Source: Pelagibius litoralis (GTDB taxonomy: Bacteria; Pseudomonadota; Alphaproteobacteria; Kiloniellales; Kiloniellaceae). Taken from it: 64,000 nt of DNA. Where the stretch lies: the NCBI RefSeq assembly GCF_011683915.1, contig NZ_JAAQPH010000004.1:248001-312000 (forward strand). The letters are read 5' to 3'. Both the position numbers and the translations under genes were made by a program. Within the stretch, counting starts at the first letter, position 1. The number at the start of each line of letters is the position of its first letter. The notes beneath the pieces are model-generated. The model saw nothing but the letters and a program-made list of their open reading frames with translations. It was not told the origin of the DNA and ran no database searches. Below are positions 39,039-43,980 of this stretch, piece after piece.

Positions 39039-39650
39039 GTGACGGAGACCGAGTGGCCGGACCTCGATGGTCTGGAATCCCTTTCTGCCGAGGAGATGGC
39101 CGCCCGGCGCCTGAGCCTGCCGCCGCGACAGGATTTCTGGGTTTTCGGCTATGGATCTTTGATGTGGCATCCGGGCTTTCCCCATGTCGAAGTCCGCATT
39201 GCCCGCCTGAACGGTCTTCATCGGCGCTTTTGCGTCTTTTCTCACAGATATCGCGGCACCCCGCGTCTGCCGGGGTTGGTTCTGGGGCTCGATCGCGGCG
39301 GTTCCTGCCGCGGTCTGGCCTTTCGGGTACCGGCGGCCGAAGGCGAGGCGGTGCTCGATTATCTCTATGAGCGCGAGATGATCACCGGCGTCTACCTGCC
39401 GTCCTGGCGCGCGGCGAAAACCGATCAGGGCGTTGTCCCGGCGATTACCTTCGTGGTCGACCGCGCACACCCGCAGTACGCCGGTGGTCTGCCCCACGAC
39501 CGGATTGTCGAGATGATCCTGCAGGGGCGCGGCGACCGTGGCCCCTGTGTCGAATACCTGGAAAACACCGTGCATCACCTGCAGGCCCTGGGTCTGCGCG
39601 ACCGCGCGCTGGAGCGTCTTCTGAGCGAGGCCAGAGTGCGCCGAGGCTGA
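39039..39650 (+). CDS. Gamma-glutamylcyclotransferase (ChaC-like)
   Basis: A 203-residue protein. The nucleotide-independent glutamyl-binding loop YGSLMW is at about 38-43, and the downstream RFCVFSHRYRGTPRLPGLVLGLD and YEREMITGVYLPSW blocks carry the catalytic glutamate. ChaC enzymes cleave glutathione to 5-oxoproline and Cys-Gly. The start is GTG 39039. It follows a gap of about 170 bp from the divergent DUF2125 start. Confidence 0.92.
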   Translation: MTETEWPDLDGLESLSAEEMAARRLSLPPRQDFWVFGYGSLMWHPGFPHVEVRIARLNGLHRRFCVFSHRYRGTPRLPGLVLGLDRGGSCRGLAFRVPAAEGEAVLDYLYEREMITGVYLPSWRAAKTDQGVVPAITFVVDRAHPQYAGGLPHDRIVEMILQGRGDRGPCVEYLENTVHHLQALGLRDRALERLLSEARVRRG

Positions 39651-39748
39651 GAAGCCGTATCTGCTCTACCGGCCGCTTCGCCCGGTACTGCAGACTTGCT
39701 GGGTATAACGAGGTCCCCGGGCCCCCTGATCTGCGTCGTCCGGTCTGC

Positions 39749-39764
39749 GTCACATTTTAGTGAC
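39749..39764. promoter_or_regulatory. GTCAC-N6-GTGAC palindrome upstream of the YHS/bufferin block
   Basis: A perfect inverted repeat, GTCAC (39749-39753) and GTGAC (39760-39764), lies about 95 bp before the YHS gene in an AT-richer stretch. It is the best operator candidate for the metal-defence block. I did not find a clear ECF-type -35/-10 pair. The regulator is unknown. Confidence 0.4.
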
Positions 39765-39858
39765 GTCTCGTGATTTGATCGCGACCCGATTACGCAAATA
39801 TCTCTATCTAGTCAGGCGCCTGCCTGTTCTTTCAAACTGAAGATGCGAGGTCCTCCCC

Positions 39859-40401
39859 ATGATGCGCAAACTTATTCTGGCATCGGCTTTGTCGGTGTTG
39901 GTTACCGGTGCGGCCCAGGCCGGCGAGCAGTATGTCGATGAGTCCGGTTTCGCGATCAGCGGCTATGACGCTGTGGCTTATTTCGACATTCAGCAAAATG
40001 CCGTGGGCACCAGGCAGCCGGAAGCAGTGCCCGGCAAGGCTTTGATCACGGCGGAATACAACGGCGCCACCTGGGCGTTCTCCACCGAGGCCAACCGTGA
40101 CAAGTTCGTTGCCGATCCGGCGAAGTATGCGCCGGCGTTCGATGGGCATTGCGCCTACGGCCTGGCCCAGGGCGGCAAGGTCCCGGCGAACCCCAATCTC
40201 TGGCGCATCGTCGACGGCAAGCTCTATCTGAACATCACGCCGAACGTGGTCGGGTTCTGGGAAAGCGACATCCCCGGCAATCTCACCAAGGCCGACCAGA
40301 ACTGGACAGGCAAGGAAGCCGCCCCCGCGTCGTCGCGCAGCTGGAAAGCGATCGACGACAACAAGGGTACCTACAGCGTTACTGCGCCCATCGAGGGATA
40401 A
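39859..40401 (+). CDS. Exported YHS domain-containing protein
   Basis: A 180-residue protein with a Sec signal peptide (cut near AQA-GE at about 21). A YHS-like domain follows: ISGYDAVAYFD at 34-44, then YNGATWAFSTEANRDKFVADPAKYAPAFDGHCAYGLAQG. YHS domains are metal-binding modules, and this YDAVAYF form is widespread in periplasmic proteins. It ends 81 bp before the DUF2282 precursor on the same strand with no terminator between, so it may be the first gene of the bufferin-type operon. Role in metal handling is inferred. Confidence 0.88.
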   Translation: MMRKLILASALSVLVTGAAQAGEQYVDESGFAISGYDAVAYFDIQQNAVGTRQPEAVPGKALITAEYNGATWAFSTEANRDKFVADPAKYAPAFDGHCAYGLAQGGKVPANPNLWRIVDGKLYLNITPNVVGFWESDIPGNLTKADQNWTGKEAAPASSRSWKAIDDNKGTYSVTAPIEG

Positions 40402-40482
40402 CCCGACGTTTGACGTCTTCCTGTGCCCCGGTTCTTGCTAGGTTACCGGGCGACACGGGTGAAGCAGAGGAGATTTGAGAGA

Positions 40483-40815
40483 ATGGCTGAAAAGACCAAG
40501 GTTGTCTCGGCGGCGATGATTGCCGGGGCCGTGGCCCTCGCGGTATCGGCGACGGCGAACGTGGCCCCCGCCGGTGCCGCAGCAAAAGAAAAATGCTACG
40601 GCATTTCTCTGGCCGGGCAGAACGACTGTGCCGCCGGTCCCGGCACCACCTGTGCCGGGACTTCGACAATCGACTACCAGGGCAATGCCTGGACGCTGGT
40701 TCCGGCCGGCGATTGCCTGAAGTACGGCGTCGAAGAGGCCAACGCGGACTTCGAGCTGCCGGGCGACCGCACCGGGGCGCTGGAAGCCCTGGAACGCGAC
40801 CTGCCGCAGGCCTAG
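40483..40815 (+). CDS. bufA: DUF2282 family bufferin-type RiPP precursor
   Basis: A 110-residue precursor with a signal-peptide-like N-terminus (hydrophobic 8-33, cut near AGAAA). The core has four cysteines at C38, C49, C57 and C78 ([17 protein letters not shown]...TCAGTSTID...PAGDCLKYG), the BufA1/DUF2282 pattern. In characterised bufferins the central cysteines become thiooxazoles made by the DUF692 enzyme and the product binds copper in the periplasm. Residues 83-110 form an acidic tail. AGAGGAG at 40466-40472 fixes ATG 40483. A strong hairpin follows, before the modifying-enzyme genes. Confidence 0.92.
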
Positions 40816-40844
40816 GCTGAAGACCGCCTGAGGATGGATCTGAT

Positions 40845-40892
40845 GGGAACACCGGCCCGATTGTGCGATTCCGCTATCGGGCCGGTGTTCCC
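40845..40892 (+). ncRNA. 17-bp perfect hairpin between bufA and bufB (processing or attenuation element)
   Basis: Arms 40845-40861 and 40876-40892 are perfectly complementary, with a 14-base loop and no T tract. It lies 29 bp past the bufA stop and 35 bp before the bufB start. It probably stabilises the precursor mRNA or attenuates read-through, giving more precursor than enzyme. This is inferred from structure and position. Confidence 0.7.
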
Positions 40893-40927
40893 GCTCATCC
40901 CTGCCCGACCGCCCCGGCCAGACTAAA

Positions 40928-41827
40928 ATGACCAAACCCATGACCATACCGAGCCGCGCCGGGCTGGGCCTGAAGGCTCAGCACTATGACGTCATCCTGG
41001 ATACCAGGCCCGATGTCGGCTGGTTTGAGGTGCACGCCGAGAACTACATGGGCGCGGGCGGTCCGCCGCACCACTATCTGACCCGGATCCGCCGGGACTA
41101 TCCCCTTTCGCTGCACGGCGTCGGCCTTTCCATCGGCGGCGCGCAGCCGCTGGACGAGGCGCATCTGGCGCGCCTCAGGGATCTGGCCGAGCGTTATGAA
41201 CCGGGCCTGGTAAGCGAACACCTCGCCTGGTCGACCCATGACGATATCTATCTGAACGATCTGCTGCCGCTGCCCTATACCGATGAGGCGGTGATGCGCG
41301 TCAGCGACCACCTGGACCGGATGCAACAGGTGCTGCGCCGCCAGGTCCTGCTGGAGAATCCCTCGACCTATGTGGCCTTTGAAAACAGCGCCCTGAGCGA
41401 GATCGATTTTCTCCAGGCCGTGGCGAAGCAGAGCGGCTGCGGGCTGCTGCTGGATGTGAACAACGTGCTGGTTTCAGCGACCAATCAGGGCTATTCGGCC
41501 GAAGCTTACATCGACGCTTTTCCCCTGGACCTGGTGGGTGAAATTCATCTCGGCGGCCATGCAACCGAACGCGAGGCGACCGGCGGGACCCTGCTTATCG
41601 ATGCCCATGACCGGGCGGTGGACGACCAGGTCTGGGCGCTCTACGCCAGGACGCTTGCGCGCGGTGGGGCAAAACCCAGCCTCATCGAATGGGACAACGA
41701 CCTGCCGGCCTGGGAGACGCTCTACGCCGAAACCCTTACGGCCGAGCGCTTCATCGCGGCCCAGGTATTCTGCGGCCCCAAAGACCCGGCCCCACTTCCC
41801 CGGACTCAGCATGCCGTCGCTCGCTGA
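40928..41827 (+). CDS. bufB: DUF692 multinuclear non-heme iron oxidative enzyme (MNIO), bufferin maturase
   Basis: A 299-residue TIM-barrel protein of the DUF692/MNIO family, which includes MbnB and TglH and modifies cysteines in peptides. Candidate metal ligands are visible: H63 (SLHGVGLS), E97 and H98 (VSEHLAW), H104, E143 (LLENPSTY), D176/N178 (LLLDVNNV), H207 and H211 (IHLGGHA), D225/H227, and E254 (LIEWDND). It is expected to install thiooxazoles in the adjacent DUF2282 precursor. ATG 40928 is used; ATG 40940 is possible. It overlaps bufC by 17 bp. Confidence 0.93.
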   Translation: MTKPMTIPSRAGLGLKAQHYDVILDTRPDVGWFEVHAENYMGAGGPPHHYLTRIRRDYPLSLHGVGLSIGGAQPLDEAHLARLRDLAERYEPGLVSEHLAWSTHDDIYLNDLLPLPYTDEAVMRVSDHLDRMQQVLRRQVLLENPSTYVAFENSALSEIDFLQAVAKQSGCGLLLDVNNVLVSATNQGYSAEAYIDAFPLDLVGEIHLGGHATEREATGGTLLIDAHDRAVDDQVWALYARTLARGGAKPSLIEWDNDLPAWETLYAETLTAERFIAAQVFCGPKDPAPLPRTQHAVAR

Positions 41828-42599
41828 TCTGCAGGGCGGTTTCGCCGCGGCGCTGCGTGACGCCGGCCTGCCGCCCCCCGCGACCATCGCGGGGCAGGCG
41901 CGGCAGCCGCAGAGCCGCCGCTTCGACGTCTACCGCAACAACCGGATGGCCAGCCTGATCGAGGCGCTGGAATCCGCTTTCCCGGCGCTGCGCCAACTTG
42001 TCGGCGATGCCTTCTTCAAGGCGGCGGCCAAGGCCTATATCGATCTGGATCCGCCGCAATCGCCCGTCTTGCTGCTCTACGGCCAGGGTTTCGGCAAATT
42101 CCTGGACGGCTTTCCTCCGGCATCTCAGGTGCCCTATCTGGGCGATGTCGCGCGGCTGGAATGGGCCCGGCTTAATGCCTTTCACGCCGCCGATGCGGCG
42201 TCCCTGGCCATCGACCGGCTGGCGGCATTGCCGCCGGCAGACCTGGCGGGCTTGCGCTTTGAGCTGCACCCCTCTCTGCAGTTGCTGCACTCACGCTGGC
42301 CGGTGGTTTCGCTCTGGGCCAGCAGCAGCGGCACCGATCCCGATGCCGCGGTCGAGATGAGCCAGGGCCAGGATGCCATGGTGATCCGCCCGGCACTGAA
42401 CGCGGACACGCGCATCCTGCCGGCCGGCGGCTATGACTTCATCGGGCGGCTTCTGGCCGGGGCGCCCCTGGCCGAGGCCGCCGAGCTGGCGGCACTCCGC
42501 GACCCGGCTTTCGATCTTGCAGTGCATCTGCAGGGGCTTTTCGAAGTCGGTGCGGTGACTGCTGTTTTGCCGGCAGGCCCTGAACCCAAGCAAGAATAG
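41811..42599 (+). CDS. bufC: DUF2063 family partner of the MNIO enzyme
   Basis: A 262-residue protein. The N-terminal DUF2063 region (LADLQGGFAAALRDAG...RFDVYRNNRMASLIEALESAFPALRQLVGDAFF) and a C-terminal helical-beta part are typical. In related clusters this partner recognises the precursor leader and delivers it to the DUF692 enzyme. ATG 41811 lies inside the end of bufB, so translation is coupled. The frame is open further upstream but that part shadows bufB. Confidence 0.9.
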   Translation: MPSLADLQGGFAAALRDAGLPPPATIAGQARQPQSRRFDVYRNNRMASLIEALESAFPALRQLVGDAFFKAAAKAYIDLDPPQSPVLLLYGQGFGKFLDGFPPASQVPYLGDVARLEWARLNAFHAADAASLAIDRLAALPPADLAGLRFELHPSLQLLHSRWPVVSLWASSSGTDPDAAVEMSQGQDAMVIRPALNADTRILPAGGYDFIGRLLAGAPLAEAAELAALRDPAFDLAVHLQGLFEVGAVTAVLPAGPEPKQE

Positions 42600-42609
42600 G
42601 CTGAAGACG

Positions 42610-43194
42610 ATGACCCAATTGACTGCTCTCTATGACCGGATCTTTGGCCTGATCGAGGCGAAACTGGACGGCTGGTTTCTCGGGTTCCTCGCCCGTCTGG
42701 TCTTTGCTGCGGTGCTGGCGGTCTACTACCTGCATTCCGCCAGCCTGAAGGTGGGCGACGGCGTGACCGGATTTTTCAGCGTCGGCGACAATGCCTATTT
42801 TCAGATTCTGCCCTCGGTCGTCGAAGCCTATGGCTACGACGCCTCGCAGGTGCCGTTCTTCCCCTATGACCTCATCGTCTTCGCTGGCACCTATGCCGAG
42901 TTCGTTCTGCCGCTGCTCATCGTGTTCGGGCTTTTCACGCGTCTCGCCTCATTGGGTATGATCGGTTTCATCGTGGTGCAGAGCTACGTCGACATCGCTT
43001 TTCACGGCGTCGACGCGGCGACCGTCGGATCCTGGTTCGACCGCTTGCCGAGCGCCGCCATTCTCGACCAGCGCGCGCTCTGGGTTTTCCTGTTGATTGC
43101 CCTGGTGGTGAAGGGGGCCGGCGCGCTTTCGCTGGACCATGTCCTGGGCAGGGTGGTGCGGGTGAAACAGCCGCCCCGGCCCGTCACGGCGTAG
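42610..43194 (+). CDS. DoxX family membrane protein of the bufferin cluster
   Basis: A 194-residue inner-membrane protein with four hydrophobic segments (FLARLVFAAVLAVYYLHSASLK at about 24-45, then about 90-110, 115-133 and 160-180) in the DoxX pattern. DoxX-type genes complete many bufferin and gold/copper-induced clusters. A redox role in precursor or quinone handling has been suggested for DoxX proteins, but its exact task here is unknown. It starts 10 bp after bufC. Confidence 0.9.
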   Translation: MTQLTALYDRIFGLIEAKLDGWFLGFLARLVFAAVLAVYYLHSASLKVGDGVTGFFSVGDNAYFQILPSVVEAYGYDASQVPFFPYDLIVFAGTYAEFVLPLLIVFGLFTRLASLGMIGFIVVQSYVDIAFHGVDAATVGSWFDRLPSAAILDQRALWVFLLIALVVKGAGALSLDHVLGRVVRVKQPPRPVTA

Positions 43195-43215: not shown

Positions 43216-43980
43216 TCAGCTCACCAGGCCGACCCGGCGTCGGCCTTCTTCGGTTTTCAGCGAGAAGTCGGTGCCGGCGAATTCCGCGGCCTCAGCCGTG
43301 CACAGCCAGGCAATCGCGCGGGCAGGCCAGTCCGCCGGGATATGGACAGAGGGGTCCAGCTGGCTGACCGGGTTGATGCCGGAAGCCTTGATCGAAACCT
43401 GCATGTCGGTGGCGACGGTACCGGGGCTCAGACCCACCACCCGGATGCCTTTTTCGCGGTATTCCTTGTCGGCGCAGCGGGTCAGCGACAGCACGGCGGC
43501 CTTCGTCGAGCAGTAGTGGCTCCAGCCCTCGAGGGCCCCGGTAGCGGCGCCTGAGCTGATGTTGACGATCACGCCGCTGCCCTGCGCTTCCATGACCGGG
43601 AGCGCGGCGCGCAGACCGTGGTAGACGCCCTTGAGATTGATGTCGACGGCAAGGTCCCAGGCTGCCGGGTCGGACTCGCCCAGGCGCGCAATCGGGTCGA
43701 TCACCCCTGCGTTGTTCACCAGGATGTCCAGGCTGCCATAGGTGCTTCGGCAATGCTCGACAGCGGCGGTGACATCGTCATAGCGGCTGACGTCGCAGGC
43801 AACGGCGCTCGCCTTGTCGCCTGCCTCGGTGATCTTCGTGGCCAGCGCCTCGATCTCATCCAGGCTGCGCGCGGCAAGGACAACTGAGACGCCCAACCGC
43901 GCCAGTTCCTCGGCCGCGGCGGCGCCGATCCCCCGGCTGGCGCCTGTGATAACAGCGGTCTTGCCCTGCAGTTCCTGCAT
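43216..43980 (-). CDS. SDR family NAD(P)-dependent oxidoreductase
   Basis: A 254-residue short-chain dehydrogenase. TGASRGIG is at about 13-20, NNAG at about 90, and the catalytic serine and Y-x3-K (SHYCSTKAAV) at about 155-161, all intact. The segment GLSPGTVATDMQVSIKASGINPVSQLDP is like that of yeast-type and FabG-related reductases, but the substrate is unknown. It is convergent with the DoxX gene across 21 bp. The 140 bp upstream separates it from the ribonucleotide reductase gene on the same strand. Confidence 0.92.
   Translation of the reverse strand: MQELQGKTAVITGASRGIGAAAAEELARLGVSVVLAARSLDEIEALATKITEAGDKASAVACDVSRYDDVTAAVEHCRSTYGSLDILVNNAGVIDPIARLGESDPAAWDLAVDINLKGVYHGLRAALPVMEAQGSGVIVNISSGAATGALEGWSHYCSTKAAVLSLTRCADKEYREKGIRVVGLSPGTVATDMQVSIKASGINPVSQLDPSVHIPADWPARAIAWLCTAEAAEFAGTDFSLKTEEGRRRVGLVS

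Follow-up and report, generated by a model that had tools for sequence, protein, structure and literature searches.

A conserved YHS-domain gene at the head of a Buf1 bufferin cluster in Pelagibius litoralis and other Alphaproteobacteria, with a proposed role in metal handling

We analyzed a 64,000-nucleotide stretch of the Pelagibius litoralis genome (assembly GCF_011683915.1, contig NZ_JAAQPH010000004.1, positions 248,001 to 312,000 of the forward strand), hereafter the window. Five genes on its plus strand, at 39859–43194, form a bufferin cluster with a YHS-domain gene at its head. Matches to Pfam and NCBIfam models above their cut-offs gave the order YHS-bufA(DUF2282)-bufB(MNIO)-bufC(DUF2063)-DoxX (Table 1), bearing out the genes, the order and the bufferin-type assignment of an earlier first-pass annotation, which had also named the four precursor cysteines (C38, C49, C57 and C78) correctly. 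Since all four core genes are present, bufA-bufB-bufC-DoxX is, by gene content, a standard Buf1 bufferin cluster. The precursor scored below the cut-off of the BufA2 model (22.2 vs 60), as expected for a Buf1-type precursor, and the DUF2063 and DoxX proteins scored below the HvfC (47.8 vs 142) and HvfX (31 vs 80) equivalog cut-offs. The MNIO enzyme could be aligned with PDB 3bww (E value 7.8e-41), over stretches that we take to contain the iron ligands.

The Buf1 clusters of Caulobacter (CC3254-CC3257) and Cupriavidus (gigPABT) likewise consist of a four-cysteine precursor, an MNIO enzyme, a DUF2063 partner and a DoxX protein in the same order, whereas the window cluster has the YHS gene at its head. 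The gap between YHS and bufA is 81 bases (40402–40482), and no terminator-like site was found in it, in agreement with the spacing given in the first-pass annotation. Terminator-like sites in the region numbered seven, compared with 2.4 expected. Both the YHS protein and BufA are probably exported, judging from their sequences. The YHS protein scored above the curated cut-off of NF041384, the YHS domain (seleno)protein family, for which we know of no function and for which none was found in the literature searched.

Table 1. Features of the bufferin locus; positions are those of the window.
Feature	Coordinates	Strand	Basis
Interrupted palindrome GTCAC-N6-GTGAC, GTCACATTTTAGTGAC; core CACATTTTAGTGA fits dyad MAC-N6-GYGA	39749..39764	+	
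CGTGATTTG block of upstream element GTMAC-N15-CGTGATTTG	39769..39777	+	
Candidate promoter TTGATC-18-TATCTC, just 3' of the dyad	39775..39804	+	by eye from alignment
Short hairpin CAGGC-GCCTG before the YHS gene	39813..39826	+	retained in the window and in 6 congeneric sequences
YHS domain (seleno)protein family member, Cys form, 180 aa, first gene	39859..40401	+	NF041384 128.2 bits (cut-off 70); PF04945 32.7 (cut-off 30.3), residues 61-93
His97-Cys98 of subgroup motif D-G-H-C; sole Cys from residue 30 on	40147..40152	+	alignment
bufA, DUF2282 bufferin precursor, 110 aa	40483..40815	+	PF10048 81.3 bits (cut-off 22.4); Cys 38/49/57/78
BufA C-terminal 32 residues with ELPGDRxGALEALxRDLP-type motif	40717..40812	+	comparison with relatives
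bufB, MNIO (DUF692) bufferin maturase	40928..41827	+	NF050167 384.9 bits (cut-off 310)
bufC, DUF2063 partner protein of MNIO enzyme	41811..42599	+	PF09836 83.3 bits (cut-off 27.2)
DoxX family membrane protein	42610..43194	+	PF07681 24.6 (cut-off 23.6), narrow pass
Terminator-like hairpin 3' of DoxX, possible operon end	43226..43246	+	terminator scan

The YHS-DUF2282 pair was surveyed in 385 genomes of the class, a sample uncorrected for kinship and genome size. Among the matches listed, 135 genomes had DUF2282 and 117 had the YHS family; 61 had both, compared with 41 if the two were independent, and 56 of the 117 YHS genomes had no DUF2282 match. In at least 14 of the 135 DUF2282 genomes (11 by coordinates and three by fetching loci), the YHS gene was the immediate 5' neighbour of DUF2282 in the same orientation; this is a lower bound, made up of genomes that are not independent of each other. 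The fetched DUF2282 loci came from four genomes without a listed YHS match, of which three belonging to one genus were linked (G082, G197 and G290) and G200 was unlinked. MNIO, DUF2063 and DoxX genes followed the pair in 13 of the 14 linked genomes. Genomes with YHS near, yet not directly before, DUF2282 were left uncounted: the genes are divergent in G315 and G095, and they lie about 4.5 kb apart in G075 and G364. Among the other fetched stretches, those of G200 and G160 held DUF2282 without a YHS gene, and those of G336 and G378 held YHS without DUF2282. Such a genome-neighbourhood survey had been suggested in the first-pass annotation, and in it the pair recurred across genera and families.

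Closer relatives were surveyed in 40 genomes. YHS orthologues with 74–93% identity were found in six of seven congeners, with the five genes in order at all six loci; the seventh, G388, had a distant YHS protein only. The same order was seen in 4/4 genomes of the sister genus g3 and in G392 and G406, and the orthologue was seen in none of the nine genus g2 genomes surveyed. At ten loci outside the genus read by eye, the flanking genes differed from those of the window, which argues for the YHS and bufferin genes as a unit. A wider scan for named loci, confined to the best 80, contained six linked loci: Oceanibacterium hippocampi (L084) and metagenome-assembled genomes of Rhodovibrionaceae (L085), Geminicoccaceae (L089), Erythrobacter (L156) and other Alphaproteobacteria (L088 and L090). 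The five genes were also carried by a plasmid of Thalassobaculum from the plume of a hydrothermal vent (L163, 14998–19561), where genes for an extracytoplasmic function (ECF) sigma factor and NrsF follow them; the plasmid was not counted as a case beyond G380.

A tree of 100 YHS rows taken from the collected loci (31 linked, 68 unlinked and one undecided) placed all 31 linked proteins in one group of 55 rows, with an SH-aLRT (Shimodaira-Hasegawa-like approximate likelihood ratio test) value of 89, below the starred level of 95. The linkage label changed nine times on the tree compared with 26.5 times when shuffled, and three of the changes were forced by starred branches; the tree came from a quick search, and near-copies favour clustering. 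Within the window's subgroup, D95, G96, H97 and C98 were present in 42 of 42 rows, a count that leaves out the long-branched L078 at the base of the subgroup, while H97 occurred in none of the 58 other rows. One stretch was 16–17 residues long in the subgroup and 7–11 in other rows. The single cysteine from residue 30 on was invariant in 100/100 rows. The genome of P. litoralis holds a second YHS family gene (L001, 1375–1854), which is unlinked and falls outside the bufferin-associated tree group.

Co-occurrence of the two families was also seen where the genes lie apart. DUF2282 was found elsewhere in the genome in 21 of 25 genomes with an unlinked window-type YHS gene; these were drawn from the best 80 loci and chosen to spread over genera, with genome completeness unrecorded. 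As a control for kinship we used 120 genomes of a single family, that of G154, in which window-type YHS stood out as a distinct class (E values of at most 2.4e-57 in 19 genomes, the next being 5.8e-35). DUF2282 was present in 19/19 of these compared with 66/101 of the others (P 0.0007); genomes carrying only other YHS types had it in 39/52, compared with 27/49 (P 0.03). One of the 19, G527, had YHS directly before bufA and bufB. The genes adjoining unlinked YHS were mixed. By eye, those of L079 and L097 (Rhodobacterales) included permease-like and rhodanese-like genes, and in Porticoccus (L154, 1747–5450) a YHS family gene followed genes resembling a metal-related ABC transporter set.

The first-pass annotation had pointed to a GTCAC-N6-GTGAC palindrome before the YHS gene. 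The palindrome is present and is unremarkable alone, with two matches in the window at up to one mismatch compared with 1.34 expected, so that its weight rests on comparison. Variation of its right arm among congeners at first suggested a coincidence, a view dropped after comparison with bufA upstream regions in genomes where YHS and bufA are split. In 19 such genomes, the bufA upstream regions yielded the motif GTGAcaCACg.gctcGTGAg (log-likelihood 179.9 vs 59.3 when shuffled), which includes CAC-N6-GTGA as in the window palindrome. The palindrome is in this respect an instance of a shared dyad, MAC-N6-GYGA, found upstream of bufA in 18/19 and of YHS in 13/19 split genomes, with controls at 4–12%. 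Among regions not read before, the dyad lay upstream of unlinked YHS genes of the tree group in 30 of 47 cases against a control of 5.5%, the 47 being mostly close kin of regions already read; upstream of other long open reading frames at the same loci it occurred in 22/262. For bufA in the wider class, the count was 10/29 against 7.1%, in a set from which one of 30 loci dropped out and in which four were linked. Start sites were assigned by a simple rule, by which some upstream positions were shifted. The larger element GTMAC-N15-CGTGATTTG occurred without mismatch once in the genome, and the block GTCACATTTTAGTG..G...CGTGATTTG showed few changes among congeners. A width-20 motif built from the bufA upstream regions alone gave no clear match when applied to the regions before YHS in those genomes: 18/19 fell at the 43rd–98th percentile of control windows and one at the 18th. 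We read the dyad as a putative site of a regulator common to YHS and bufA in this part of the Alphaproteobacteria.

The first-pass annotation had offered the YHS gene as a possible additional member of the operon. This membership is well supported by sequence comparison, through the recurrence of the pair over genera and families, the clustering of linked proteins on the tree, the co-occurrence of the families when unlinked and the shared upstream dyad. A number of observations weigh against it, or against its extension to common control and metal binding. Among the matches listed, linkage was not seen in 121 of the 135 DUF2282 genomes, and only six of the best 80 loci were linked, the others being mostly from Rhodobacterales with the YHS gene apart. 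Thalassobaculum fulvum, the closest named YHS relative among the matches listed, has the YHS gene and DUF2282 on separate contigs; G051 has no MNIO gene beside its YHS-DUF2282 pair; and four of the 25 genomes with unlinked window-type YHS have no DUF2282 match. The window cluster is flanked by a ChaC-type gene ending at 39650 and, on the 3' side, by an SDR gene on the opposite strand, and the congeners keep these as well (ChaC in 6/6 and SDR in 3/6 stretches), so that conservation in congeners is weak evidence alone. The dyad pattern was picked after viewing 38 split and 20 linked regions, and it occurred in only 7/20 linked regions, or 14/20 if GTGT was allowed (controls 4–12%, and 6–18% relaxed); among these 20, the TCAC-N6-GTGA form was confined to the window and G390. 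Distant linked YHS genes had the dyad in 3/16 cases (P 0.055); five of these 16 regions were not new (L065, L085 and L088–L090), giving 3/11 for new regions, and YHS genes outside the tree group had it in 6/36 (P 0.024). On the side of the protein, no solved homologue was found by sequence (best E value 0.011), and the fold search gave no firm match, the best Foldseek E value (0.063) and the best Z score (4.5) both belonging to a ciliary protein. The YHS protein also lacks the ligands proposed for YHS/TRASH modules, which comprise one Asp and three Cys.

Some of these observations would suit an ordinary bufferin cluster that happens to lie next to an unrelated, co-inherited gene, namely the many DUF2282 genomes not seen linked, among the matches listed, and the other neighbours likewise kept within the genus. 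However, a rough estimate that ignores kinship gives about 0.01 linked genomes expected, compared with the at least 14 seen; the linkage extends beyond the genus with different flanks; and co-occurrence and the dyad persist when the genes are unlinked. A chance neighbour is thus already disfavoured, and we regard it as very improbable.

We consider it reasonably probable that the locus is a Buf1 operon to which a conserved fifth gene belongs, coding for an exported YHS protein that most likely acts on the same stress as the bufferin by metal binding. A single transcript would start from the element holding the MAC-N6-GYGA dyad and run from YHS through DoxX to the terminator-like hairpin. BufB and BufC would turn the two central cysteines of BufA into thiooxazoles, and exported BufA would bind surplus copper, as reported for relatives in both cases. 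The YHS protein would reach the same compartment as BufA, where it would most likely face the same stress and would bind a soft metal ion or hand it on, with copper as the first candidate, by means of the invariant Cys and the His and Asp of D-G-H-C. Metal handling is a role that we infer for the YHS protein from one invariant Cys, the adjacent His and the bufferin link, which together suit a soft-metal site, copper first.

The name YHS alone is no proof of metal binding. One Asp and three Cys are proposed in PMC4626032 as ligands for YHS/TRASH modules, and this set is absent because the YHS protein of the window has one Cys only. It resembles the YHS/TRASH domains of copper ATPases and of the Mycobacterium phlei adenylyl cyclase described there in its Pfam YHS match, just above cut-off, and differs from them in the single Cys and in being probably exported rather than cytosolic. 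It also matches the NF041384 family, of which it is a Cys form and for which PMC13188914 lists selenocysteine (Sec) members with the motif GxU; the window subgroup is set apart within that family by D-G-H-C, a 9-residue insert and the association with DUF2282. In the window gene itself Cys98 is encoded and the frame has no internal stop, which indicates that it is not a Sec form. Selenocysteine was also considered, and rejected, for relatives with a match across TGA: at the five such loci fetched, this TGA ends the gene. AlphaFold2, run with 15 sequences, predicted a small domain with fair confidence (mean pLDDT, predicted local distance difference test, 84.2); toluene monooxygenase hydroxylases matched the predicted fold with Z scores of 2.2–2.6.

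The absence of the TRASH ligands suits the principal rival, a co-regulated protein without a metal role, in which redox chemistry would be the activity: a periplasmic thiol protein acting against oxidative or sulfur stress would share the control of the bufferin because the stresses co-occur. The Sec members with GxU noted in PMC13188914 suit redox chemistry; the Caulobacter SigF set, according to PMC3511200, includes a sulfite oxidase subunit and DoxX; and a rhodanese-like gene, named by eye, adjoins YHS at some unlinked loci. On the other hand, the repeated bufferin linkage and the subgroup-specific His beside the Cys suit a metal site, and we judge a thiol protein of this kind unlikely, though worth serious consideration.

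Given the same probable compartment and the near-constant presence of DUF2282 in subgroup genomes, the YHS protein might instead serve the bufferin, binding the exported peptide and shielding its thiooxazoles or recovering its metal, rather than binding free metal. The four of 25 window-type genomes without a DUF2282 match and the many DUF2282 genomes not seen linked, among the matches listed, stand against such a servant, which appears improbable. The MNIO enzyme could also act on the YHS protein, making a thiooxazole of its only Cys. Cys98 lies within G-H-C-A-Y-G, Tyr-Gly follows the first Cys of BufA, and MNIO enzymes could modify proteins too according to PMC12452194. A folded domain is an unlikely substrate, however, the Cys is invariant in 100/100 tree rows, and 56 of the 117 YHS-family genomes have no DUF2282 match among those listed; we find modification of the YHS protein scarcely credible. 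Metal binding by the YHS protein beside the bufferin remains the reading that we prefer.

Other candidate control elements lie before the YHS gene. The candidate promoter just 3' of the dyad was read from the alignment, and a sigma-70 scan gave no site at these positions. The CAGGC-GCCTG hairpin showed no compensatory change across seven sequences, and a T-rich stretch follows it in the window and some congeners. The palindrome was also considered as a SigF-type (ECF) promoter and rejected: GTAACC-N16-CGAA was not found with up to two mismatches at 39306–41209, and the genome gave no NrsF match. In both respects the window genome differs from Caulobacter, with its SigF/NrsF control. At ten linked loci read by eye, without a search of the neighbours against families, no common regulator gene was seen beside the clusters.

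The tail of BufA after its last core cysteine, noted in the first-pass annotation, is present; its length after C78 is 32 residues rather than 28, and it is not peculiar to this locus. A tail motif of the type ELPGDRxGSLEALxRDLP was conserved among near relatives and recurred in BufA proteins that have no YHS gene beside them, such as L007, L025 and L033, so it marks a long-tailed Buf1 precursor rather than this locus. In the form GDRxGSLEALxRDLP it was found in long-tailed DUF2282 precursors from several families, whether linked or unlinked, and it lies outside the residues that the Pfam model matches. Recognition by BufB-BufC involves the signal peptide of the precursor, according to PMC12452194.

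The Buf1 cluster type is already known; the conserved YHS member is new relative to the literature searched. That literature held no report joining YHS with DUF2282 or a YHS domain with DUF692, the bufferin papers in it gave no earlier report of a YHS partner, and the papers on the YHS domain and copper included none on bufferins, by title. Those main texts on MNIO or gig clusters that were searched, including PMC12452194, contained no word beginning with YHS, supplements being outside the search. As described in PMC12452194, the MNIO cluster survey admitted an unrelated gene only if it lay no more than 10 bp from a relevant one, a rule by which a gene 81 bases off would be missed, and it found further conserved genes in extremely low proportions.

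A bolder generalization, which we put forward tentatively, is that YHS proteins with D-G-H-C are dedicated periplasmic metal-binding partners of bufferins, controlled in many Alphaproteobacteria by a common dyad-binding regulator, and that a soft-metal role may extend to the wider YHS (seleno)protein family. These findings give a testable role to a protein family without known function, as far as we are aware, and add a probable new component and a candidate operator to bufferin systems. The dyad also offers a handle on how bufferins may be turned on in genomes that lack NrsF.

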